DNA of 64,000 bases from Bathymodiolus brooksi (taxonomy: Eukaryota; Mollusca; Bivalvia; Mytilida; Modiolidae). The stretch covers positions 104,995,689 through 105,059,688 of the forward strand of contig OY804578.1 in the NCBI GenBank assembly GCA_963680875.1, given 5' to 3'. The notes under the pieces were generated by a model. It was not told the origin of the DNA and made no database searches. It saw nothing but the letters and a program-made list of their open reading frames with translations. Within the stretch, counting starts at the first letter, position 1. The number at the start of each line of letters is the position of its first letter. Positions 24,863 to 58,303 of the stretch are shown piece after piece. Both the position numbers and the translations under genes were made by a program.

Positions 24863-25327
24863 ATGGCCCCACCAAAAAAGAAAAGAAAGACAACTGAGTC
24901 CACAACAACAGACATACTTGTACCTGTATCAAGACCTCGTACACCACGATCAACAAGATCTATATACCAACGCAGTCCAGCAACTGTTTCACTTAATAAC
25001 AATACAACACCGTCAACAGATTCAAATATACCAATATTGGCTGAAAACAATACTGAAACTATACCAAACATCGATTATACTCGCTTAGCCGAGGAGATAA
25101 TCCGCTTACAAAACAGAAACACCATGGAAGAAGTACAGCCGGCTAGTAGCTCTGGAAACTTTTGTGCAGATTCCCTTACAGCAAATACATCATCCTTTTT
25201 GGCTTCAAATACTGCATTTTCATCTGGACAATTACGATCTCAATACCATAATTCTTTAACTACAGTGAGCAATCAATTCCAGACAATAATCAACCAACCA
25301 GGAATTCCACATCTGCCATGTCAGTGA
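24863..25327 (+). CDS. retroelement ORF1 with SV40-like NLS
   Basis: The frame is open from 24845 and the first AUG in good context is at 24863. The protein starts MAPPKKKRKT, a textbook monopartite nuclear localisation signal, then is Ser/Thr/Asn-rich and low-complexity with a short helical stretch (LAEEIIRLQN). It ends in TGA at 25325-25327, overlapping the start of the next ORF by 10 bases (ATGTCAGTGA). It may be the N-terminal part of Gag or a separate small nuclear protein; nuclear import suits an element that integrates DNA in the nucleus. Confidence 0.65.
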   Translation: MAPPKKKRKTTESTTTDILVPVSRPRTPRSTRSIYQRSPATVSLNNNTTPSTDSNIPILAENNTETIPNIDYTRLAEEIIRLQNRNTMEEVQPASSSGNFCADSLTANTSSFLASNTAFSSGQLRSQYHNSLTTVSNQFQTIINQPGIPHLPCQ

Positions 25328-26886
25328 ACAATAATACCCCATATACAGATAACTCACAAATCCATACTTTAATAGAGAACATTTTGAGCACAGAGTCACC
25401 AGCTAGAAGTTTTACAGGTAGAGAATTATGTCATGGCCCAATTGTAGATTTATCGGGGGTGATCCCTTTAGGTGCACACATTTCTCAACGTATAAAGGAA
25501 AAAATATGGAACAATGAATTCATGAACTTGGCTGACTTGTTACCCAAACTTGATTTTGAAGACCCCTGGTCAGTTACCCTCGGTCCTAGTCTGATAACCA
25601 TGTCAAAGCAATCCTCAAAATCAAGAGGTCCTTTGACTTTTTATGAGTGGAATGAGGCTTTCCACATTTACATGGCCATTTATATCGAAAGATTCCCCTC
25701 AGAAGCCCCTAACATGTTGAAATACATGTCCATAGTTAAGGACGCATATGAAATGAGGGGAACACAGGCTTTCCGCACATATGATCAGTCGTTTCGTTTA
25801 CTCCGGGCAAGAAATAATCTTCCATGGCAAAAACCGATAGACGAGCTATTTACAAAATCTGTATTTCCCAAAAGGCATTACCCACAAATATTCCCCAACA
25901 ATGCCTCAAACAAATATGTACCACCCACCATAAATAGGCGTTCCCAGCCCTTTCTTAACAACAGAGACAGGGATGGTACCTGTCACGTCTGGAACACATA
26001 CGAAGTGTGTAACAGGACCAACTGTACATTCAAACACGTGTGTAAGTTTTGCCGAGGCCCTCATCCCAAAGTCAGATGTACCAGACAACCAAATACAACG
26101 CAAGGCCCCCAGCAGCCAAAACACACGCACATCAACCGTCTTCCCAGCCCAATAAAAAGTGAAGTCTTTGCTAGGGAGTTGTCCGGTTATGATCCCATCT
26201 TGTATAAGTCCCTGCTTTCCGGTTTTCGAGAAGGGTTCAAATTAGAGGTCGAAGGAGAAAAACTTCAATGTAAATTTGGTAATGCAAAAAACCGCAAATC
26301 TGCACTGGAAAATCCAGATAAAGTGTTAGAAAAATTGGCTAAAGAATCCCTAAAAAGCAGAATTGCCGGTCCTTTTAAAAAAAACCCTCTCAAAAAGGTT
26401 GTATGTTCTCCTTTGGGTTTGGTGACTAAAACAGTCATTGGCAAATTCCGTCTAATACATGATCTGTCATACCCAAAAGGTAATTCTGTAAATTCACTTA
26501 TTCCTCCGGAAAATTCAGAAGTTAAATATGACTGTATTGACAACGTAATTAAATTAGTCAAACATTTCGGCCGCGATTCATATCTTGGAAAAACTGATGT
26601 GGAGGATGCATTTAGAAATATTGATATTCACCCATCTGACTATCCTTTACTAGGTTTTACTTGGAATGGGTTTTATTATTATGACAAATGTTTACCAATG
26701 GGTGCTAGTAGCTCATGTCAATTTTTTGAAAATTTTTCCTGTGCATTACAATGGATAATGGAAACTAAATATCAGGTGGCAGGCATGTCACATATCTTGG
26801 ATGATTTTTTGTTTGTGGGTCCCCCAAAATCAGACAAATGCCAACAAGATCTGGATAAATTCCTCACATTATGCTCTAAATTATAG
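25318..26886 (+). CDS. gag-like domain plus DIRS-type reverse transcriptase (5' part)
   Basis: 522 codons to an in-frame TAG. Residues about 1-190 are gag-like (WSVTLGPSLITM, YEWNEAFHIYMAIY). A Cys/His cluster at about 222-253 (CHVWNTYEVC, CTFKHVCKFC, HPKVRC) is a CCCH-like nucleic-acid-binding finger. RT follows: SPLGLVTK, FRLIHDLSYP, GKTDVEDAFRNIDIH with a catalytic Asp, LPMGASSSC, and SHILDDFLFVG with the LDD pair replacing YxDD, as in DIRS-type RTs. The frame continues beyond the TAG with VPIKAEKTV, so the stop is a nonsense mutation. Confidence 0.8.
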   Translation: MSVNNNTPYTDNSQIHTLIENILSTESPARSFTGRELCHGPIVDLSGVIPLGAHISQRIKEKIWNNEFMNLADLLPKLDFEDPWSVTLGPSLITMSKQSSKSRGPLTFYEWNEAFHIYMAIYIERFPSEAPNMLKYMSIVKDAYEMRGTQAFRTYDQSFRLLRARNNLPWQKPIDELFTKSVFPKRHYPQIFPNNASNKYVPPTINRRSQPFLNNRDRDGTCHVWNTYEVCNRTNCTFKHVCKFCRGPHPKVRCTRQPNTTQGPQQPKHTHINRLPSPIKSEVFARELSGYDPILYKSLLSGFREGFKLEVEGEKLQCKFGNAKNRKSALENPDKVLEKLAKESLKSRIAGPFKKNPLKKVVCSPLGLVTKTVIGKFRLIHDLSYPKGNSVNSLIPPENSEVKYDCIDNVIKLVKHFGRDSYLGKTDVEDAFRNIDIHPSDYPLLGFTWNGFYYYDKCLPMGASSSCQFFENFSCALQWIMETKYQVAGMSHILDDFLFVGPPKSDKCQQDLDKFLTLCSKL

Positions 26887-27715
26887 GTTCCTATCAAGGC
26901 GGAAAAAACTGTTCAACCTACTACCGTTATCACCATATACGGTATCGAGGTAGATTCTTGCAATATGGAATGCCGACTACCACAAGAACAAATTGACAAA
27001 GTCAACAAAGTGCTAGCATCAGCTAAACAGAGAAAAAAACTCAAATTAAGAGAGTTACAATCCTTGATTGGTTACTTAATTTTGCATGTCTAGTAGTACG
27101 CCCGGGAAGACCATTTTTACGTCGACTCATTGATTTAGCCAGAAATATTACCAACCCGTTTTATTTTGTGAAATTAAATTGTGAAGCAAGGGCAGATTTA
27201 CATGCCTGGTCAGTCTTTATTCAGTCTTTCAATGGTAAATCTGTTTACCTATCTGATAATTGGATCTCATCTGACCACTTAAAATTATTTACGGACGCAT
27301 CAGGAAACATAGACTATGCCGCGTATTTGGTAGTTGGTGGTTTGCAAATTCTTCGACCAAATCTTTACACCGCCACCAAATAACAGTCAAGGAGCTTTTT
27401 CCTATTGTTAATGCGTTGGAACTATGGGGGAAATATATGGTAAATTCAAAAGTTTTGTTTCTCTTAGATAATCAGGCTGTTGTAGATGTTTTGAATAAAA
27501 AGTCCTGCAGGGATAAGATTTTAATGCGTTTGGTACGGAGATTGGTTTTATGCACCCTTTCATACAACATTGTGTTTCGTGCAAAACATACTGCAGGAAA
27601 GTCTAACATAGTAGCTGACAAGTTGTCTCGTTTCCACTTTCAGAAGGCCAGACAAGTTGCTCCTTGGCTGAATCTGACCCCAGCGGAAATACCAGAACAC
27701 ATGCTGACAATTTGA
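26887..27715 (+). pseudogene. RT thumb and RNase H of the DIRS-type element
   Basis: After the TAG at 26884-26886 the same frame reads ITIYGIEVDS and LKLRELQSLIGYL to a stop at about 27090; one base is missing there, and the next frame continues with VVRPGRPFLRRLIDLARNI. Then comes RNase H: KLFTDASGN (first catalytic Asp), a further frameshift near 27380, ITVKELFPIVNALELWG (Glu block), FLLDNQAVVDVLN (Asp block) and AKHTAGKSNIVADKLSR with the final conserved Asp. It ends at 27715. The catalytic set is present but split by one stop and two frameshifts. Confidence 0.75.
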
Positions 27716-28395
27716 ATAGCTCAGCAATGACTTTATTAAGATCCTCTCTGTCATGGTCAGCAAGAAAATCATACAAACACTCATGGAATTTAATTTTTAT
27801 CTTTGACAAGTCTATTACAAGGTTGACCCTTTCTGTGATTCAAATTTGCAATTTCATTGGTGCTCTGTTTGATAAATCATACAGTCCATCCACTATTACT
27901 TCTCACGTCTCCGCAATTAGCTACATTCATAAAATTTTAGGAATTTTTGACCCAACCAGTGCCTTCGTAGTCAACAAACTCCTCAAAGGATGCAACAACC
28001 TTCGAAAGTCACATGATACCCGTCTACCTATTACAAAACAAATTTTGGAGAAAATTATTGATGGTATAGATAAATGTATTGACAACAACTTCACAAAAAC
28101 GTTACTTAAAGCAGTTTTTCTATTGGCCTTTAACGCATTTTTGCGCTTGGGCGAAATATTAGTACGTTCACCTAAAGAGGCCGGGTCAGTTATCCAAAAA
28201 CAGGATGTAACATTTACATACTGCACTCGACGTCCACAGAGTCTCACATTGGTCATAAGACACTATAAAAATATTAAAAATAATCAAGCAGTTACCATCA
28301 CGATCGAAGCAAATCACAATAATTCACAATTATGTCCAGTTACAGCGGTATATTTTTCTGTGGGTGTGTGTTTTTCCACTCGCCTTTTTACGTGA
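27664..28395 (+). pseudogene. tyrosine recombinase, C-terminally truncated
   Basis: Overlaps the RNase H end by about 50 bases in another frame, the usual DIRS arrangement. The N-terminal SAM-like part (SARKSYKHSWNLI, YSPSTITSHVSAISYIHKI) is followed by LPITKQILEKIIDGI and AFLLAF-like NAFLRLGEIL, whose Arg is the box I catalytic residue. The frame ends soon after QLCPVTAVY. The His-x-x-Arg motif and the nucleophilic Tyr that should follow are absent, so no strand cleavage would be possible. The nearest Met is not a proven start. Confidence 0.75.
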
Positions 28396-33007: not shown

Positions 33008-33205
33008 CTTGATAATACATGTCCATTTTCATATTTGCATAACAATTGTTACTTCGTGTTATCTTGTAATCCGAACATTTTTTTTTAGATTCGGAGAGTA
33101 TCTGCATAATTGCACCTTATTTTTAGCTTCCAATACACAATCAATCAATACACATGTTAGATGGATGAAATATACCACACATACATGGTTTATGGTGTTT
33201 ATCTC
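33008..33205 (+). repeat. dispersed repeat R6
   Basis: CATTTTCATATTTGCATA, TTCGTGTTATCTTGTAATCCG, GATTCGGAGAGTAT and GATGAAATATACC match 45625-45820. No coding function is clear. It directly precedes the Penelope-like fragment. Confidence 0.55.
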
Positions 33206-34262
33206 CACTACTCCGAGGAACAAGTGATCAGTATGCTGGAGTTCCTCATCGATAACATATTTGTCTCCTTTGGAGGGACACTGTTTCAGCAGGTCGTCGG
33301 CATACCAATGGGTACGAATTGTGCCCCTCTTCTAGCCGATTTATTTTTATACTCATATGAGTCGGAGTTTCTTCAAAAGCTTGTACAAGATAAGAAGATT
33401 CATGAGGCTAGAGCCTTTAATTTCACATACAGGTATATTGATTACGTTTTATCTATCAATAATTCTAGATTTGCAGAATTTCTTCCATTGATATATCCTC
33501 CAGAGCTGGAAGTTAAAGAGACCACCGATACAGCTTCGTCCGCATCATTTTTGGACTTATACCTCGAATTTGACGACAGTGGTCAACTCAGTACTAAAAT
33601 TTATGATAAGCGGGACGACTTCAATTTTCCAAATATGTGCAGCAATATACCAGCTTCTCCTGCATATGGTGTTTACATCTCGCAATTGATTCGCTATGCA
33701 AGGGGCAGTAGCAATTATTCTGATTTCCTGAAACGTCATCTTCATCTGAGAAACAGGCTACTGGACCAGGGCTATAAAAAGATTCGCCTTATTCGATCTC
33801 TTAAAAAGTTTATATTCCGATACCAATATCTTGTCGAAATATATTCCGTCTCTGCAGAAAAAATTATAAGCGATGCATTTTCATATAGTGAAAATGTATA
33901 AAGATAAAGAGTCAAATATGTCAAGAATTTTTTTTGTCAATGTGTGACGTAAAAGTATTTTTGACATTTACGTCACCGAATATGGTACTGCTTTGACAAC
34001 TATTTTACCTATTTTGTTCCTGTATTTAAATACTGTTACAGTGACAGCCGGAACCTTTGAACCGTAATGAGAGCGGGAGGTTTGGCGCCTTAAAATCTGA
34101 TTCAACCCACCATTTCTTTAGAAATGCCTGTACCAAGTCAGGGTCATTGCGGTTTTCACAGTTTTCCGGTTGTTGACTGATTTTGTCTGTTTATATAATT
34201 ATGAGTTTTGACTTTCCCTTTGTAAGATTGTTCGGAGTTCGGTAATTTTGTTATTACCTTTA
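33206..34262 (+). mobile_element. Penelope-like element, 5'-truncated copy
   Basis: The plus-strand sequence from about 33212 to 34262 is the inverse of 56440-57530 with high identity, including the ORF end and about 350 bases of 3' flank (TTGACATTTACGTCACCGAATATGG, AGAGCGGGAGGTTTGG, GTCAGGGTCATTGCGG). The 5' part of the element is missing. Confidence 0.8.
33212..33901 (+). pseudogene. Penelope-like RT fragment with mutated active site
   Basis: C-terminal part of a reverse transcriptase. It begins in the palm with EEQVISMLEFLIDNIFVSFG, then GIPMGTNCAPLLADLFLYSY, and YRYIDYVLSINN. The fuller copy at 56.8 kb reads YIDDVLSINN at the same place, so the second catalytic Asp is replaced by Tyr (33441-33443), which should abolish polymerisation. 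The frame then runs unbroken to TAA at 33899-33901. A short deletion relative to the other copy is present (DDFNFPNM versus DDFNFKIINFPNM). The codons before 33212 belong to the flanking repeat. Confidence 0.82.
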
Positions 34263-36877: not shown

Positions 36878-37900
36878 GACACCTGGCACAGAGCAACTGA
36901 ATGCAGAACTTTTTAAGATCGATCCAGTTCTTGCAGCGGATACTTTACACCCAGTATTCCACAAAATATGGGAAAAAGCTGTTATACCTAACAGTTGGTC
37001 TGAAGGTAACATCATAAGAATACCAAAATCAGGAGACTTGACTAACTGCAACAACTGGAGAGGAATCACCTTACTATCCATTCCGAGTAAGGTCTTCTGC
37101 ATAGTTTTAATATCAAGAATTATAGAAGCTGTGGACAAGAAACTACGACAAGAACAATCTGGGTTCAGAAAAGGTAGAGGTTGCATAGACAACATATTTG
37201 TCCTCAGAAACATCTTAGACAGTGCCATGAGTGGCAGAGAAAATTACTTGTTAATTTTGTAAATTTTGAGAAAGCCTTTGACAGCCTACTCAGAGAAAGT
37301 CTATGAGAAATTTTGAGAAACTATGAAATACCAAGTAAGATAGCGCAACTCTTCAAGCAGTTCTATGCACATTTCTCATGTACCATCAACTCTGAAGCTG
37401 ACACTAGATTCCTTGTAAAATCAGGAGTACGACAGTTATGTGCTATGCCATTTGTGCTCTTTATAGTTGCCATTGATTGTGTAATGAGAACAACCTAACA
37501 GAAGGTAACACCGGACTGAGATGGACACGATGTACCACACTAGAGGATACCGACTACGCTGATGATTTAGCGATATTACTAGTTCACATACTGAAGACCA
37601 TATGCAGGAAAAGATCAGAAAGTTAGAAGAAAATGCTAGAATGATTGGCCTTAAGATCAATGCCAAGAAAACAAAGTTAATGTACATCAACGCAGAAAGA
37701 TTGCCAGTCAATTGTTGTAGATGGGGACCAACTTGATACAGTAGACTCCTGTAATTACCTTGGAAGCTTTATAACAACAGAGCGTGGAGCTGAAAGAGAT
37801 ATAAAGGTCAGAATAGGAAAAGCTAGATCAGCTTTCATCAGATTAAGCAACATCTGCCTTTTCAAAGAAGACCAAGCTTAAACTGTATAACAGTTGTGTA
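36878..37900 (+). pseudogene. LINE family 2 reverse transcriptase (multiple breaks)
   Basis: In successive frames: LHPVFHKIWEKAVIP, NNWRGITLLSIPSKVF (RT block), RQEQSGFRKGRGCIDNIFVL, then after a stop and frameshift near 37262 NFEKAFDSLLRESL with a catalytic Asp, SGVRQLCAMPFVLFIVAID (the usual RQG changed to RQL), and near 37555 DYADDLAILL with the catalytic YADD. Stops at about 37260, 37305 and 37497 and frameshifts near 37600-37700 mean no protein is made. Confidence 0.8.
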
Positions 37901-37906
37901 CTATCT

Positions 37907-38311
37907 GTGCTCCTATATGGCTCAGAGTGCTGGAGAATGACCGATAAAGACATCAACATACTCTCCAGCTTCCATAACACCTGTCTGAGAAAGATAATGA
38001 AGATATTCTGGCCGAACAAAATATCCAACAAAGACCTCCATGACACGACAAACACCAAGGACATGGAGACTTTGTTGATTCAAAAGAGATGTAGATGGCT
38101 TGGTCATGTTCTACGTAAACCATCTGAAGACATGACAAAGGTAGCCCTAAGATGGACACCAGAAGGGAAAAGAAAAAGAGGAAGACCAAAAAGAACATGG
38201 AGGCGCACCATCGAAAATGAAATAAAGGAAAGAGGATACACCTGGGGCACAATAGAAAGAAAAGCCAACAACAGAGAAAAGTGGAGGAAACATATGTGCC
38301 ATGAGGCCTAG
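37907..38311 (+). pseudogene. LINE family 2 C-terminal domain
   Basis: A 134-codon intact end of the polyprotein: MLLYGSECWRMTDKDINIL, RWLGHVLRKPSEDM and RWTPEGKRKRGRPKRTWRRT, a very basic C-terminus found in many invertebrate LINE proteins after the RT. It presumably binds nucleic acid. The first Met is internal to the original protein. Confidence 0.8.
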
Positions 38312-39299: not shown

Positions 39300-39540
39300 T
39301 TTATGCATGTAGTTTCATATGTGCATCTTCTGGTTCTTTTGTGCCGTACATGGACCGTCAAAAACCTTTTTGAAATTTGAAAAGTCGCCATATTGTTTCG
39401 AGATTTTATTTAATTAGACATTGATAAAGTCCCTCGGTGGGACGAAAATTTTGTCATTCTACGAAGTGTTTAATTCTTTATCACTTTGTTTTGTGTACTT
39501 GGTGTTGTTATACAAACCATTTTAGACGTTTATAATTGTT
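39300..39540 (+). repeat. Penelope-type terminal repeat (pLTR), plus orientation
   Basis: Ends in CATTTTAGACGTTTATA (39519-39535), as do the terminal repeats at 39738-39960 (inverted) and 42820-43090. It contains a degenerate hammerhead-like fold at 39417-39455. The start is uncertain. Confidence 0.55.
39417..39455 (+). ncRNA. degenerate hammerhead-ribozyme-like fold
   Basis: GACA (39417-39420), core TTGATAA (39421-39427), stem II GTCCC-TCGGT-GGGAC (39429-39443), GAAA (39444-39447), ATTT and TGTC (39452-39455). GACA pairs with TGTC. The core differs from CTGATGA at two positions, so it is probably inactive, but stem sequences covary with the copy at 42949-42987 and the TCGGT loop is identical. 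Confidence 0.55.
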
Positions 39541-39604
39541 TTACTTGTATAGTATCGTTATACCGTAACGATCCAACACCCCGTAAGATTGATCGTTGAC
39601 TGGT

Positions 39605-39655
39605 TTTTCAGACGTTGTATATATATATATATATATATATATAAACGTCTGAAAA
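39605..39655. repeat. (TA)n flanked by inverted 13-mers
   Basis: TTTTTCAGACGTT and AACGTCTGAAAAA enclose a (TA)n tract of about 25 bases. It marks the outer edge of the minus-strand Penelope-type element. Confidence 0.7.
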
Positions 39656-39737
39656 AGTAGCCAACGTATGAACCTACGAGATATCGGATCGGAAACAAGT
39701 GTTAACGATACTGTGCAAACAAACAAAAATGATAAAT

Positions 39738-39960
39738 AAACGTCTAAAATGTTAGCACAACGATATCAAAAAAAGATGTTAAAATGTAACAAAAATAACT
39801 GACCGACAAGCTTCATCAGCGTCTGTAATCTGATTTGAAAAATTGTCACGTGACCATCAGTTATCGTGACATAAATTACTAAAAATCATAATCTTGAACT
39901 TTATATTATTCAAGTATATTGCACACTAATTTATAAACAATATGAACAGAATGAGAAAAT
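39738..39960 (-). repeat. Penelope terminal repeat with half-deleted ribozyme
   Basis: Inverse of 42820-43090. On the minus strand it reads to GACGCTGATGAAGCTTGTCGG and then jumps to GTTATTTTTG, lacking about 52 bases that in the other copy contain CAAGC-GAAA and the cleavage site. The ribozyme here is therefore dead. Confidence 0.75.
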
Positions 39961-40027: not shown

Positions 40028-40866
40028 TTAGGCCTTTTTGTTTATGCCTTCCGGATGTAACGTTTGTAAATCGCGGATCCAAAAACTCTCTCTTTTCTGT
40101 CTTTGATTTTCTTTCCAACTTGGATTGTGGTCAACGATATATATTTTGGATCTGCCAAAGTCTTCCAATGAGTGCCCCGGCGACACAAAGTGTTGACTCA
40201 CGGGCAAGAGCGTCTTTTTCGTAAGGTCACTTCTGTGTCCATTCATTCTTTTGTTGAATGGTTGGACACTTTCTCCTACGTATTGCGACCCGCAGACGTG
40301 ACAGTCAAGGAGGTAAACCACATTAGGTGTTTTGACATTGCAAAATATCTTATACTCCTTTCCCGTCGTCTTGCTATGGAACACTTGTGTGTGTTGCAAT
40401 TGGAGACAGTACTTGCAACGCTTGTCACCACATGGTTTACAGTGGCCGACCGTCGATGAAGGTCTAGATACCGCAGCTCTGACCAGTGTATCCTTAATGC
40501 TTTTAGGTCGCCGGAACGCTACAACGGGTGGTTCAGGAAACAACTTGGTCAGCCTTTCACTTTTTTCAATTTCTTTCCAATGATGACGGACAATGCCTGC
40601 AATTTTCTCTAAAGAAGGATGGTAAGTGAGAACAAGGGGAACCCGTTTGTTGATCTTTTTTTCTTTGTACTCCAGGAGGTCATTTCTGTTAATTTCACTG
40701 GCTTTTGAAAACCCACTCTCTATAACTTTGTCATTATATCCCCGTTTCTTCAAATGATGGCGTAAATCTCCTAGTCTTTGCTTGGTGGTTTCAACAGTGG
40801 AGCATATTCGTTTTACTCTAATGGCTTGGCTGAATGGGATACTCTTAAAACAGTGCTTAGGGTGGC
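40028..40866 (-). pseudogene. Penelope-like linker and GIY-YIG endonuclease
   Basis: Open from about 40866; the first Met is at 40753. The linker contains LGDLRHHLKKRGYND and LVLTYHPSLEKIAGIVRHHW. A Cys cluster GHCKPCGDKRCKYC precedes the endonuclease. The GIY-YIG core appears as NVVYLLDCHVCGSQYVGES, then FNKRMNGHRSDL (Arg and His block), GHSLEDFG and RQKRESFWIRDLQTLHPEGI, with the Glu of the catalytic set. Ends at TAG-like stop 40028. The endonuclease itself looks intact and would nick target DNA to prime reverse transcription. Confidence 0.87.
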
Positions 40867-40868
40867 AA

Positions 40869-41639
40869 CTACTGGGTGGGCTTAGAGTATAAATCAGTTG
40901 TCATGTTGCCCTCCTTGATCGTGGTGGTAGCATCAAGGGAGGACATTTTGGTTTTCGACACTTCGTGTGTCAATTTTATAGACGAATGGATACTGTTGGC
41001 ATGTTCCAAAAATTCATCAAGCTCTCTACCGCCATGTGTCCACTTCATGTCAACGTCATCTATAAATCGGAACCATGAAAGAGGTTGTTTAAGTGACGAG
41101 AGGAGTAATCGTTCTTCTAGGTCCCCCATAACAATTTTGGCATAGGAGGGTGCCATTGTGGTTCCCATAGCTGTCCCATTTATTTGAAGATAGTGATTTC
41201 CGTCAAAAGTAAAATTGTTGTTTTCTAGAACTAGTGTAAGCATCTCTACTAAACATTCTGTCGGAGGTTCTTGATCTGTTCGATGTTCCCATATTTTTCT
41301 GCATGCGGCAATTTCGTCACCATGGGGAATGTTCGTGTAAAGGGAAGTTACATCCATGGTAGCAAGCGTGGTATTTTCTGGAATGGTTAAATTTTCCATT
41401 TTCTTCAAGTAGTCGGTAGTATCTTTGATGTGTGATGGAAGGTTTTCAACGAACGGCCGAAGGTGAAAATCAATAAATTCCGATATCTTTTCAGTTGGGT
41501 GACCATTAGCTGATACAATCGGTCTCCCCGGATTGTTTTCCTTGTGAATTTTAGGCAGCAGATAGAAACGGCCTGGCTTGGGATCCTCTGGAGTAAGGTA
41601 CTCCATGGTCTTATTGTCTAAGTGGCCACGAGCATGCAA
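40869..41639 (-). pseudogene. Penelope-like reverse transcriptase
   Basis: 256-codon frame with the Penelope RT series: GRFYLLPKIHKENNPGRPIV, TLATMDVTSLYTNIPHGDEI with catalytic Asp, NGTAMGTTMAPSYAKIVMG, and WFRFIDDVDMKW with the DD pair in place of YxDD. The frame ends at PTQ-stop; compared with the usual protein, a few codons plus a frame change are lost at about 40870, after which the linker continues in another frame (SSCHPKHCFKSIPFSQAIR). Confidence 0.85.
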
Positions 41640-41925
41640 TAGCCTCTAAGGCTCGTATGATCTTCTGCGTAAAATCCAGTGTAGGGTCAGAATCTAATTT
41701 TTCGTAGAATCGACAATCGGACAGTTGTCTTTCTGCTTCTTGTATATATATCGTTTTATCCATGACTACTACTGCACTCCCCTTATCTGCTGGCTTAATA
41801 ATAATATCATCTCTTTCCTGTATATCCCTAAGGGCTGATCTTTCTGCCTGTGTTAAGTTGTCGGTCTTGGGGACATGTACGTCAACATTGCGTTTGATAT
41901 CTGACTTATCTCGGCAGTATGTTGA
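41611..41925 (-). pseudogene. Penelope-like polyprotein, N-terminal region
   Basis: Reads ERDDIIIKPADKGSAVVVMD, the conserved block at the start of Penelope RT regions, then TIYIQEAERQLSDCRFYEKL. The ORF has 16 extra codons at its start derived from the LINE (MLLYGSECWRM), so the apparent 119-residue protein is a chimera. The frame is lost at about 41625, just before the RT frame begins (HARGHLDNKTMEYL). Confidence 0.8.
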
Positions 41926-42819
41926 TGTCTTTATCGTCATTCTCCAGCACTCTGAGCCATATAGGAGCACAGATAGTACACAACTGTTATACAGTTTAAG
42001 CTTGGTCTTCTTTGAAAAGGCAGATGTTGCTTAATCTGATGAAAGCTGATCTAGCTTTTCCTATTCTGACCTTTATATCTCTTTCAGCTCCACGCTCTGT
42101 TGTTATACAGCTTCCAAGGTAATTAAAGGAGTCTACTGTATCAAGTTGGTCCCCATCTACAAAAATTGACTGGCAATCTTTCTGCGTTGATGTACATTAA
42201 CTTTGTTTTCTTGGCATTGATCTTAAGGCCAATCATTCTAGCATTTTCTTCTAACTTTCTGATCTTTTCCTGCATATGATCTTCAGTATGTGAACTAGTA
42301 ATAGCGCTAAATCATCAGCGTAGTCTGTATCCTCTAGTGTGGTACATCGTGTCCATCTCAGTCCGGTGTTACCTTCTGTTAGGTTGTTCTCATTACACAA
42401 TCAATGGCAACTATGCAGAGCACAGATGGCATAGCACATAACTGTCGTACTCTTGATTTTACAAGGAATCTAGTGTCAGCTTCAGAGTTGATGGTACATG
42501 AGAAATTTGCATAGAACTGCTTGAAGAGTTGCGCTATCTTACTTGGTATTTCATAGTTTCTCAAAATTTTTCATAGACTGTCTCTGAGTAGGCTGTCAAA
42601 GGCTTTCTCAAAATTTACAAAATTAACAAGTAATTTTCTCTGCCACTCATGGCACTGTCTAAGATGTTTCTGAGGACAAATATGTGGTCTATGCAACCTC
42701 TACCTTTTCTGAACCCAGATTGTTCTTGTCGTAGTTTCTTGTCCACAGCTTATATAATTCTTGATATTAAAATTATGCAGAAGACCTTACTCGGAATGGA
42801 TAGTAAGGTGATTCCTCTC
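41919..42819 (-). pseudogene. LINE family 2, inverted partial copy
   Basis: Near-identical inverse of about 37050-37965: it contains, on the minus strand, the same RT segments, including the LRNYEIPSKIAQLFKQFYA frame (42564-42379) and LLYGSECWRM. It is cut at GACATCAACATAC (41919) by the Penelope element and at 42819 by the Penelope terminal repeat. The rest of its 3' end is not found beyond the Penelope element. Confidence 0.82.
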
Positions 42820-43082
42820 ATTCTGTTCATATTGTTTATAAATTAGTGTGCAATATACTTGAATAATATAAAGTTCAAGATTATGATTTTTAGTAATTTA
42901 CGTCACGATAACTGATGGTCACGTGACAATTTTTCAAATCAGATTACAGACGCTGATGAAGCTTGTCGGTCAAGCGAAATATCCGTCGATTTAATTATAA
43001 TTATAGTCTTTTTGTAGACTTATAGTTATTTTTGTTACATTTTAACATCTTTTTTTGATATCGTTGTGCTAACATTTTAGAC

Positions 43083-43117
<35 letters not shown>
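42820..43117 (+). repeat. Penelope terminal repeat (pLTR), intact ribozyme, (TA)n end
   Basis: Starts ATTCTGTTCATATTGTTTAT and ends CATTTTAGACGTTTATA followed by (TA)n to 43117. The inverse of it lies at 39738-39960. It carries the hammerhead motif at 42936-42992. Confidence 0.8.
42936..42992 (+). ncRNA. type I hammerhead ribozyme motif
   Basis: Core CTGATGA at 42953-42959 and GAAA at 42976-42979. Helix II is GCTTG-TCGGT-CAAGC (42961-42975), preceded by one extra A at 42960. Helix I is formed by GACG (42949-42952) with CGTC (42984-42987), and outside an 8-base bulge by AAATC (42936-42940) with GATTT (42988-42992). TATC (42980-42983) leaves a minimal, self-complementary helix III, with predicted cleavage after C42983. 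Penelope-like elements are known to carry minimal hammerheads in their terminal repeats, some thought to work as dimers. The extra A is unusual and activity is unproven. Confidence 0.7.
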
Positions 43118-44330: not shown

Positions 44331-44400
44331 AGGATATATATAATAAATAAACAACGATGTAAATATAATCGAATATATAAACTAGAGATGAACTGAAATT

Positions 44401-44757
44401 ATGAAAAAGCATACTGCTTTAGTTTTGTTGATGGCCTCAGCTTCAGCCATCTACGTTATGCCAACGCCAATTGCTGGTGTACGAGGATACAGCCCAATTT
44501 CTGGTGTACCAGGATACACGCCAATTTCTGGTGTACCAGGATATACGCCAATTTCTGGTGTACCAGGATACACGCTAATTTCTGGTGTACGAGGATACAC
44601 GCCAATTTCTGGTGTACGGGGATACACGCCAATTTCTGGTGTACGAGGATATACGCCATTTTTTGGTATACGAGGATATACGCCAATTTCTGGTGTACGA
44701 GGATACATGCCAATTTCTGGTGTACGAGGATACACGCCAATTTCTGGTGTACGATGA
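44401..44757 (+). CDS. putative secreted repeat protein (signal peptide plus 9-residue repeats)
   Basis: 118 codons. Residues 1-16 form a good signal peptide: KK after Met, a hydrophobic core ALVLLMASASA and a likely cleavage after Ala16. After a short spacer (IYVMPTPIA), units of the 9-mer GVRGYTPIS follow (variants GVPGYTPIS, GIRGYTPIS), about ten in number, to a TGA at 44755-44757 made by GGA to TGA in one repeat. A TATA-like stretch lies at about 44333, and two minimal upstream frames (ATGTAA at 44357; ATGAACTGA at 44388) precede the ATG. If expressed it would be a small secreted, Gly/Tyr/Pro/Arg-rich repetitive protein of the sort used in extracellular matrices. I do not recognise it; chance creation of the signal peptide cannot be excluded. 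Confidence 0.5.
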   Translation: MKKHTALVLLMASASAIYVMPTPIAGVRGYSPISGVPGYTPISGVPGYTPISGVPGYTLISGVRGYTPISGVRGYTPISGVRGYTPFFGIRGYTPISGVRGYMPISGVRGYTPISGVR

Positions 44758-45360
44758 TACACGCCAATTTCTGGAGTACGAGGATACACGCCAAATTCTG
44801 GTGTACCAGGATACACGCCAATTTCTGGTGTACGAGGATACACGCCAATTTCTGGTGTACGAGGATACACGCCAATTTCTGGTGTACGAGGATATACGCC
44901 ATTTCCTGGTATACGAGGATATACGCCAATTTCTGGTGTACGATGATACACGCCAATTTCTGGAGTACGAGGATACACGCCAATTTCTGGTGTACGAGGA
45001 TATACGCCAATTTCTAGTGTACGAGGATATACGCCAATTTCTGGTGTACGACGATACACGTCAATTTTTGGTGTATGAAGATACACGCCACTTTCTGTTG
45101 TTCGAGGATACACGCCAATTTCTGGTGCACGAGAATATACGCCATTTTCTGGTGTACGTGGATATACGCCAATTTCTGGTGTATGAGAATACACGCCAAT
45201 TTCTGGTGTACGAGGATATACGCCATTTTCTGGTGTTCGAGGATACACGCCAATTTCTGGTGTCCGAGGATATACGCCAATTTCTGGTGTACGAGGATAC
45301 ACGCTAATTTCTGGTGTACGTGGATATACGCCAATTTCTGGTGTACGAGGATACATGGTA
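44461..45360. repeat. 27-bp minisatellite, about 33 units, open in all six frames
   Basis: Consensus GGTGTACGAGGATACACGCC plus AATTTCT. Because 27 is divisible by 3 and the consensus contains no stop on either strand, long ORFs occur in every frame: plus GVRGYTPIS, VYEDTRQFL and CTRIHANFW; minus VYPRTPEIG, LACILVHQK and RVSSYTRNW. The longest is minus 45389-44451 (312 codons). The plus signal-peptide frame has four further TGA/TGA-like stops after the first. Variation is mainly C/T in TACACG/TATACG, synonymous in the GVRGYTPIS and VYPRTPEIG frames. Confidence 0.9.
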
Positions 45361-45423
45361 TGGTAAGATGTTGATATGCTTGGTGACATTCCGACAATTG
45401 TTTTGATTTTGATTGATTTGATT

Positions 45424-45590
45424 TATTGTGTCTAACGCCACTTTCAGCAATATATTAGCTATATCATAGCGACCAGTTTGAGTGGTGGAGGAAGTCGGAG
45501 TACCCGGAGAGAACCACTAACCATGGGCAAGCAACTGGCAAACTTTATCACTTTCAGCTGTGAGTCGAGTGCACCCTTTTTGTAATTTGC
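45424..45590 (-). mobile_element. SINE 3' part (copy E)
   Basis: Minus strand. Plus-strand landmarks: TAACGCCACTTTCAGCAATA, TTAGCTATATCATAGCGACC, GGAGTACCCGGAGAGAACCA, GGGCAAGCAACTGGCAAAC and GAGTCGAGTGCACCC. No tRNA head. Confidence 0.8.
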
Positions 45591-56812: not shown

Positions 56813-58303
56813 TTATACATTTTCACTATATGAAAATGCATCGCTTATAATTTTCTCTGCAGAGACGGAATATATTTCGACAAGATCTTGGTATCGGAAT
56901 ATAAACTTTCTAAGAGATCGAATAAGGCGAATCTTTTCATAGCCCTGGTCCAGCAGCCTATTTCTCAGATGAAGATGACGTTTCAGGAAATCAGAATAAT
57001 TGCTACTGGCCCTTGCATAGCGAATCAATTGCGAGATGTAAACACCATATGCAGGAGAAGCTGGTATATTGCTGCACATGTTTGGAAAATTTATGATTTT
57101 AAAATTGAAGTCGTCCCGCTTATCATAAATTTTAGTACTGAGTTGACCACTGTCGTCAAATTCGAGGTATAAGTCCATAAATGATGCGGACGAAGCTGTA
57201 TATGTGGTCTCTTTAACTTCCAGCTCTGGAGGATATATCAATGGAAGAAATTCTGCAAATCTAAAATTATTGATAGATAAAACGTCATCAATATACCTGT
57301 ATGTGAAATTAAAGGCTCTAGCCTCATGAATCTTCTTATCTTTTACAAGCTTTTGAAGAAACTCCGACTCATATGAGTATAAAAATAAATCGGCTAGAAG
57401 AGGGGCACAATTCGTACCCATTGGTATGCCGACGACCTGCTGAAACAGTGTCCCTCCAAAGGAGACAAATATGTTATCGATGAGGAACTCCAGCATACTG
57501 ATCACTTGTTCCTCGGAGTAGCATGTTTTACCTTTTTGAATTTTGTTTGAAAAATATGTGGAATTGTAGCCTAACACAACACATTTTGAGCCATAGTTTC
57601 TATGACTAAAAGCTTTATGAATTGTTTCTTTTAAGCGGGTTTTTAATTTGTCATGCGGGAGGGTGGTATATAGAGTTGAAAAATCAAATGTTTTGATGGA
57701 GGATACATGAGAGAAAGATCTTGATTTCAGGTTATCCAAAAGATCTTTAGAGTTTTTCAAAATCCACATGTGATTTATGCCACTACGCGAGTAAACAGTT
57801 TCACAATATTTCTGTTGTCCCTCTTTTATTGCAGACAGAATCTTTGTCAGGTGAATAGATAATTCTTTCGTCGAACAAGTTGATGATCCTGCTATGTACC
57901 TTTCTTTGTATGGTGTCTTATGGAGTTTAGGTATCCAATATAAATAGGGTAAATCCTCAGACCCTTTACCAGAGGGAATGCTTAAAGAGGTCATGAATGA
58001 TCTGTGGTTAGCTAGGATTTCATCTTTGTCGAACGAAGTTGGTTTGTATGTGGTATTACTAGAGGTGTTACTATTTATGCCTAATTCCTTGATTAGTCAT
58101 TCGAAGTAATATGATTTACATACAAACACGATATTGTTGGAAGCCTTGTCCGCAGGAACGATAACATATTTGTCATGAAGAGAGGAAAGACACTTAACAG
58201 CTTCTTGGTCTTTAAATACAGACTTAGGTCCACTATTAACACAATTTTTGAGTTGAAATTGAGACGTCGAGTACCGGATTATACAACACCAGACTGGGTG
58301 CAC
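56813..58303 (-). pseudogene. Penelope-like RT, element 2 (one nonsense codon)
   Basis: One frame from about 58250 to 56813, broken only by TGA at 58097-58099. Before the stop: DKYVIVPADKASNNIVFVC, the N-terminal Penelope block. After it: LPYLYWIPKLHKTPYKERYI (LPKIHK-like), KTFDFSTLYTTLPHDKL with catalytic Asp, GIPMGTNCAPLLADLFLYSY and FTYRYIDDVLSINN with the catalytic DD intact. The C-terminus ends DAFSYSENV without a GIY-YIG domain, so this is a different Penelope-like lineage from the one at 40-42 kb, or one lacking its endonuclease. The first ~17 codons come from the flanking repeat. The first Met of the long frame is at 57994. Confidence 0.82.

Follow-up and report, generated by a model that had tools for sequence, protein, structure and literature searches.

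Minimal type I hammerhead motifs with an extra adenosine accompany Penelope-like elements in the genome of Bathymodiolus brooksi

Introduction

Can a short motif that has almost no helix III, and that carries one additional adenosine between its catalytic core and helix II, be a hammerhead ribozyme, and does it belong to the retroelement in whose terminal repeat it lies? Positions 42936–42992 of the DNA analysed here raise this question. The whole stretch (the window, 64 kb) is part of contig C4 of the genome of Bathymodiolus brooksi (2.0 Gb, 136 contigs). A sequence-only reading had described the site as a hammerhead in a Penelope terminal repeat, had pointed to paired changes in a second copy at 39417–39455, and had named the extra adenosine of both copies as the unusual point. 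Work by Cervera & de la Pena (2014) and by Lunse, Weinberg & Breaker (2017) reportedly treats minimal type I hammerheads found in Penelope-like elements and in Terminons. Published hammerheads of Penelope pseudo-LTRs have a weak or absent helix III, occur as tandem copies and possibly cleave as dimers (PMC7761336, PMC6155905, PMC7229834).

Results

Every hammerhead part that had been claimed for 42936–42992 can be read directly in the DNA (copy A, of what we call family A), in the following arrangement.

42936–42992 (+): family A hammerhead ribozyme, type I with minimal helix III; predicted cut 42983/42984
42936–42940 with 42988–42992 (+): distal helix I, AAATC paired with GATTT; from the sequence
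42941–42948 (+): helix I bulge of 8 nt, AGATTACA; from the sequence
42949–42952 with 42984–42987 (+): proximal helix I, GACG paired with CGTC; from the sequence and covariation
42953–42959 (+): core CTGATGA, corresponding to C3-U4-G5-A6-U7-G8-A9; from the sequence
42960 (+): extra A, position 10, between A9 and helix II; from the sequence and genome-wide patterns
42961–42965 with 42971–42975 (+): helix II, GCTTG paired with CAAGC, with loop TCGGT at 42966–42970; from the sequence and covariation
42976–42983 (+): GAAA (42976–42979), helix III loop TA, U16.1 (42982) and C17 (42983)

Apart from the inserted A, the core of copy A is exactly CUGANGA...GAAA...UH. Helix II is not joined directly to A9, one extra A standing between them both here (42960) and in the second copy, copy B (39428). 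The 8-nt bulge of helix I and the TCGGT loop are candidates for a loop-loop contact between helices I and II. A type I hammerhead descriptor (helix I of 4 bp, Watson-Crick pairing of 3 with 8, at most one extra base, helix II of 4–6 bp, GAA-A, then 2–6 bases, then U-H) matched only copies A and B on the two strands of the 64-kb window; in 200 windows shuffled by a first-order Markov model it gave 0 matches with C3-G8, and 0.015 matches per window with any Watson-Crick 3-8 pair. Single-sequence folding energies of the window copies were unremarkable (z −0.73 and −1.75), and Rfam models returned no hammerhead row for the window (E up to 5), for 42900–43030 (E up to 10) or for 14 further loci (E up to 5), among them L095, which was later rejected as a hammerhead.

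Copy B is laid out as follows.

39417–39455 (+): family B hammerhead, with U3-A8 in place of C3-G8 and with the extra A; predicted cut 39451/39452; from the sequence and the descriptor
39417–39428 (+): GACA (39417–39420), TTGATAA (39421–39427), extra A (39428)
39429–39455 (+): GTCCC/TCGGT/GGGAC (39429–39443), GAAA (39444–39447), AT, T (39450), T (39451), TGTC (39452–39455)

The layout is identical to that of copy A, as had been proposed, but copy B is not a diverged copy of A: it belongs to a high-copy family of its own, and its core departs from the consensus by C3U together with G8A, a compensated pair change that had gone unmentioned. Positions 3 and 8 pair in the active hammerhead structure. 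U3-A8 is found in 13 of 13 distinct family B rows of a regex-derived alignment (described below) and in all 39 family B rows at loci L029–L058, which were found through an adjoining exact 11-mer (37 of the 39 identical over the 90 nt compared, some loci overlapping and the window's own copy included); being present in all of them, it is not the decay of one copy. With the best 40 of 1521 candidates scored, a genome search placed family B at no fewer than 42 places, at 99–100% identity over at least 335 of 346 nt.

Genome-wide, a pattern containing the extra A matched 622 times (344+278), compared with 13 times (6+7) for its reversed control, the pattern excluding most of family A because helix II had to begin with G followed by a base other than C. 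The same pattern without the extra A gave 66 matches (33+33) against 114 (66+48) in the reversed control, which is no excess, and in 6 of these 66 rows the match is a copy of family A or C that has G where the extra A would stand. A U3-A8 pattern, lying outside most of family B, matched 54+50 times against 34+29 in its control, and a pattern pairing the TCGGT loop with other helix II sequences 10 times against 4, most of these matches being point variants of the family A or B motif. Some nine hammerhead groups carrying the extra A are present in the genome; besides A and B these are the following, distinguished from the matches listed (the first 100 at most per search).

Group C: helix I GCAA/TTGC; helix II GACGG/CCGTC
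Group D: helix I GACA/TGTC; helix II GGTCA/TGATC
Group E: helix I of two pairs; helix II GGYC/GGYC
Group F: helix I of 2–3 pairs; helix II GATGG/CCATC
Group G: helix I TCCG/CGGA; helix II GGTCG or GGCCG/CGGCC
Group H: helix I TTT/AAA plus G-U; helix II GAACTG/TGGTTC
Group I: U3-A8; helix I TTATCC/GGATAA; helix II GGCC/GGCC

The extra A is universal in groups C–I because the search patterns demanded it; the informative point is that the same search without it yields no enriched set. It is also present in 44 of 44 distinct aligned family A copies from the loci retrieved, a retention that weighs little because these copies are young. N7 varies among the groups (T, C, G, A), as a hammerhead predicts, helix I has only 2–3 adjacent pairs in groups E and F, and several of the 12 group I copies fetched have broken pairs. 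As an outside control, an extra-A pattern was run on viral contigs, where 3 of 121 matches listed had paired helices. Loci L095–L098, candidates for hammerheads without the extra A, were rejected, having either no helix I adjoining the core or no helix II. A covariance model of the families with 5-bp helices found both window copies, from which it had been built, and weakly (E 0.063) a truncated copy described below; among 31 other loci it found places in 8 (E 0.17–2.7; groups E, G and one of I) and none in groups F or H, and since its scores were weak it was not used to recruit members. The sharing of the extra A by the two window copies is thus matched by 622 against 13 places genome-wide with the A and 66 against 114 without it, and the extra A looks like part of the motif in these Penelope elements.

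Pairing and covariation were examined in two ways. In the pattern-only matches, which entered without a pairing filter, at least 4 consecutive helix II pairs were formed in 43 of 55 unique extra-A matches, where interior shuffling predicts 5.7 and the largest of 2000 shuffles reached 15; the 55 come from the first 100 of the 622 listed, and most belong to groups C and D and are therefore not independent. For matches without the A, the corresponding count was 7 of 46 unique (from all 66 rows), with 2.8 expected. We then aligned the 5-bp families A–D, using a regex that demanded TGA, A9, the extra A, A13–A15.1 and U16.1, followed by a pairing filter; 51 distinct rows were kept, 19 were dropped as likely chance matches (several in one coding stretch), and three chance matches in the window were also left out. 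Helix cells were paired in 92.5% of cases, compared with 70.7% after shuffling and at most 52.4% when partners were slid, a figure somewhat favoured by the pairing filter, as the 43 of 55 above is not. Cells changed on both sides numbered 142 against 47.3 in shuffles, and the covariation score was 0.633 against 0.225. Two further measures showed no excess, namely the pairs changed on both sides (8 of 11 against 7.8) and the further pair types (18 against 21.7). The 3-8 pair was CG in 32 rows, UA in 17 and other or unpaired in 2. The bases demanded by the regex, A15.1 and U16.1 of helix III among them, are for that reason uninformative in their invariance, and rows within a family are not independent, so that weight falls on the contrast between families.

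The covariation that had been seen between two copies consequently holds across the genome and extends to the catalytic 3-8 pair, with three of five measures above their shuffles and two not. These data support the conservation of helices I and II as structure rather than as sequence, and on the genome-wide data the motif at 42936–42992 is confirmed as a real hammerhead fold.

Helix III is a single A-U pair closing a 2-nt loop, and there is no stable helix III within one molecule. Its usual form is a self-complementary A-N-N-U (AUAU in A; AAUU in B, C and D; ACGU in E; AGCU in F and G). In group H the tetranucleotide, AUCU, is not self-complementary, and in group I it is mixed (AUGU, ACAU, ACGU, AAGU), a mixture that could have arisen by CpG decay of ACGU. 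Self-complementarity hence holds in 7 of 9 groups as read, or in 8 of 9 when ACGU is assumed for group I, with probabilities from base composition of about 0.0025 (hand calculation) and 2e-4, respectively, although the true evidence is weaker than these values because B and D share their helix III sequence. The 7 of 9 groups agree with the dimer-type layout that had been proposed, and Penelope hammerheads may self-cleave as dimers (PMC7761336).

The Penelope setting of the two copies rests on these features.

40028–42030 (−): Penelope frames, comprising GIY-YIG endonuclease (40028–40900), reverse transcriptase (40869–41645) and an N-terminal piece (41611–42030)
42816–43092 (+): family A terminal repeat with the ribozyme, 5′-truncated, with end AGACGTT beside (TA)n
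39732–39956 (−): inverted family A terminal repeat at the 3′ end of the Penelope copy on the minus strand
39800–39829 (−): truncated family A hammerhead, 5′ half only; from repeat comparison and a weak model match of 18.9 bits
39028–39643 (+): family B Penelope 3′ end, 5′-truncated, 616 nt; 99.35% identical to L054 1329–1944
39617–39643: (TA)n tract in which B (plus) and A (minus) meet, 3′ end to 3′ end

Adjacent frames match reverse transcriptase (PF00078, 9.6e-9) and GIY-YIG (PF01541, 2.4e-5), a domain pair at 40028–42030 which we take to be typical of Penelope-like elements; the first part of the N-terminal piece matches the LINE-type frame at 37847. The two family A repeats, 39732–39956 and 42816–43092, are inverted arms of the pseudo-LTR kind, and such arms occur in Penelope elements. 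The former is 52 nt shorter (225 vs 277), with a gap across the ribozyme: the hammerhead at 39800–39829(−) breaks off behind the loop of helix II and is without the 3′ strand of helix II, GAAA and the cleavage site. The 5′-truncated repeat of copy A is joined at 42819 to an 884-nt LINE-type piece, LINE being our reading of the frame. This piece is one of an inverted pair (37058–37941 and 41936–42819, 98% complementary over 884 nt), whose right copy is wedged between two inverted Penelope family A parts.

The arrangement recurs elsewhere: in families A–D, with one locus measured per family, the hammerhead lies in sense orientation ~180–430 nt downstream of the endonuclease match (218 nt in A at L014, 428 in B at L054, 180 in C at L069 and 297 in D at L078), so that core, helices I and II and extra A all stand downstream of the frame in four families. 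Families A–D are the scope of this neighbourhood, and several other C and D loci have no frame within the stretch examined. Family B loci L040 and L047 (99% identical over 1646 nt) carry a frame, a hammerhead and the next frame in tandem. The Penelope assignment in the sequence-only reading is thereby upheld. A search for related proteins yielded 423, the 120 listed including one from Ruditapes philippinarum at 46% identity. Identity with metazoan retrozymes was considered for families A–D and rejected, the neighbour being a Penelope frame.

Family A and B ends consist of AGACGTT followed by (TA)n, and an inner AGACGTT serves as the end of a number of A copies, including the window copy (43079–43085). 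The composite from 39617–39643 to 43085 has (TA)n on both sides and inverted A ends, an architecture that would suit an internal start of reverse transcription primed by each of the two cut strands, of the kind described for the Anolis element PAc (PMC11167929). A long hairpin at 39569–39691 is not one element; it consists of a B (plus) and an A (minus) 3′ end joined at their shared (TA)n.

Other features of the window include a 27-nt tandem repeat at 44380–45450 (33 register copies of a 300-nt reference), which is open in several frames on both strands and is possibly a repetitive-protein gene. Similar frames at 33161–33901(+) and 56813–58096(−) were read as another Penelope-like reverse transcriptase, on the strength of a 23% match of one of them to the window's reverse transcriptase; the descriptor found no hammerhead near either. 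Frames at 25252–28395(+) have a reverse transcriptase match below the Pfam cut-off, and a frame downstream within this stretch resembles, in our view, a tyrosine recombinase, presumably suggestive of a DIRS or Ngaro-type element.

Within family A, 1371 motifs with at most one mismatch occur genome-wide; exact motifs make up 85 of 100 among the matches listed on contig C1, which scales to ~970. Single mutants comprise 19 with C3U (25 less 6 doubles) and ~122 with G8A (128 less 6), the latter ~10 times the mean count per site (~400 single mutants over 31 sites, estimated). As G8 does not lie in a CpG, a damaged-core G8A subfamily has probably spread, and this counts against a strict need for cleavage. 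The U3-A8 doubles within family A (6 against ~2.4 expected) were rejected as evidence of compensation, the copies not being independent. Divergence is 2.1% in the core and 2.8% in the flank, giving no sign of constraint after insertion within this family. Given the probable spread of the G8A subfamily, a core that drifts like its flank and the insertion of PAc core mutants in vitro, cleavage may be useful even if not every copy requires it.

Discussion

Taken together, the motif at 42936–42992 is very probably a type I hammerhead of minimal form, placed in the 3′ untranslated region or pseudo-LTR of a Penelope-like element, one that would cut itself by way of a dimer and to which the extra A is integral. 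Read-through or tandem Penelope transcripts would self-cut at 42983/42984, leaving a 2′,3′-cyclic phosphate and a 5′-OH and separating the unit RNAs. With helix III reduced to one A-U pair, the fold would be hard to maintain in a single molecule; pairing between the AUAU of two copies would instead give them a common helix III of 4 bp and let them cleave as a dimer, possibly with assistance from the protein that the element encodes. Cleavage in family B would proceed likewise, with U3-A8 replacing C3-G8, and the extra A probably slows or tunes cleavage.

That AT-rich repeats produced the motifs by chance has next to no probability: Rfam misses them and their energy z-scores are weak, as this explanation would have it, but the 622 against 13 matches and the helix II pairing in 43 of 55 against 5.7 refute chance for the set. 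It is quite conceivable, if somewhat short of an even chance, that the extra A is a functionless accident of one ancestor, inherited by all groups of the lineage. The extra-A groups all come from a single genome, helix I and the helix III bases are common to B and D, and the corresponding base in chrysanthemum chlorotic mottle viroid (CChMVd) lowers the cleavage rate (PMC3705267), all of which would fit such an origin; against it, the A is present in groups that have diverged in the bases of their helices and loops, and, with the small weight that young copies allow, it is kept throughout the 44 distinct family A copies.

Two further alternatives concern activity. The fold could be inherited but idle, kept by now mainly as a structural element or binding site for the reverse transcriptase, or present as a hitch-hiker, with no role for cleavage in copying. 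We think this unlikely, though the ~122 G8A copies and the neutral decay within family A speak for it, as does PAc, in which core mutants had no effect on insertion in vitro and no RNA-seq ends lay at the cut (PMC11167929). Both helices, the 3-8 pair and the freedom at N7 nevertheless persist across groups with different helix sequences, and a binding stem-loop alone would not need a Watson-Crick 3-8 pair. Rather improbable, too, is that family B is an inactive ribozyme multiplied from a mutated master copy, with activity confined to C3-G8 motifs of the family A type. A single master would indeed give the U3-A8 seen in all 39 rows (13 of 13 distinct), and independent C3U and G8A changes would give a number not far from the 6 family A doubles; yet group I also has U3-A8, with helices intact in its best copies (L101, L103), and U3-A8 hammerheads occur naturally, such pairs being active in vitro (Perreault et al. 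2011, PMC3088659).

The reading as a dimer-acting hammerhead with an integral extra A can be taken a step further, to a suggestion that we offer tentatively and hold to be doubtful: the motifs may form a hammerhead subclass of this lineage's own, with an obligatory A10, a switch between C-G and U-A at the 3-8 pair, and a helix III formed only between molecules through A-N-N′-U, in which cleavage would respond to pairing between two RNAs of the element or between tandem copies, possibly with a requirement for the encoded protein. Should the extra A prove to be a fixed functional component, the genome would offer hundreds of naturally occurring test cases of a deviation reported in a viroid, and a large set of Penelope hammerheads would prove to escape the Rfam models. 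The two 3-8 forms, present in elements that are otherwise similar, and the self-complementary helix III open dimer cleavage, and the part it plays when Penelope is copied, to direct test.

Compared with known systems, the motifs resemble the minimal hammerheads of Penelope elements and Terminons in their pseudo-LTR setting, weak helix III, tandem copies and possible cleavage as dimers, and differ from them in that the extra A10 is the common form and two groups have U3-A8. The U3-A8 hammerheads of Perreault et al. (2011) show the same compensated change of C3-G8, which here occurs together with the extra A in a many-copy Penelope family. PAc likewise pairs a Penelope reverse transcriptase/GIY-YIG element with a hammerhead and has AT-rich targets, an internal start of reverse transcription and partial rescue by C3G/G8C (Mob DNA 2024, PMC11167929); its motif overlaps the start of the frame, whereas the motif described here follows the stop codon. 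Metazoan retrozymes, too, carry type I hammerheads in animal genomes, a mussel included (PMC7229834), but are short non-coding tandem repeats with ~150–400 bp between hammerheads, while families A–D adjoin Penelope frames.

The closest likeness for the extra A is the plus-strand hammerhead of CChMVd, in which an unpaired A10 stands at the same place, between A9 and G10.1, and moderately lowers the cleavage rate, while A10U raises it (PMC3705267). This known exception means that the extra A does not exclude the motif from the hammerhead family. It also qualifies the extra A as the unusual point of the locus: there is a precedent in a plant viroid, and what sets the present motifs apart is that the A is common to many copies of several retroelement groups. 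In the portions of the literature on Penelope hammerheads that the analysis covered, we found no passage linking the extra A to Penelope. Penelope hammerheads without helix III, dimer action, U3-A8 and an extra A10 are each already in print; possibly new is the extra A as the rule in a set of Penelope hammerheads.
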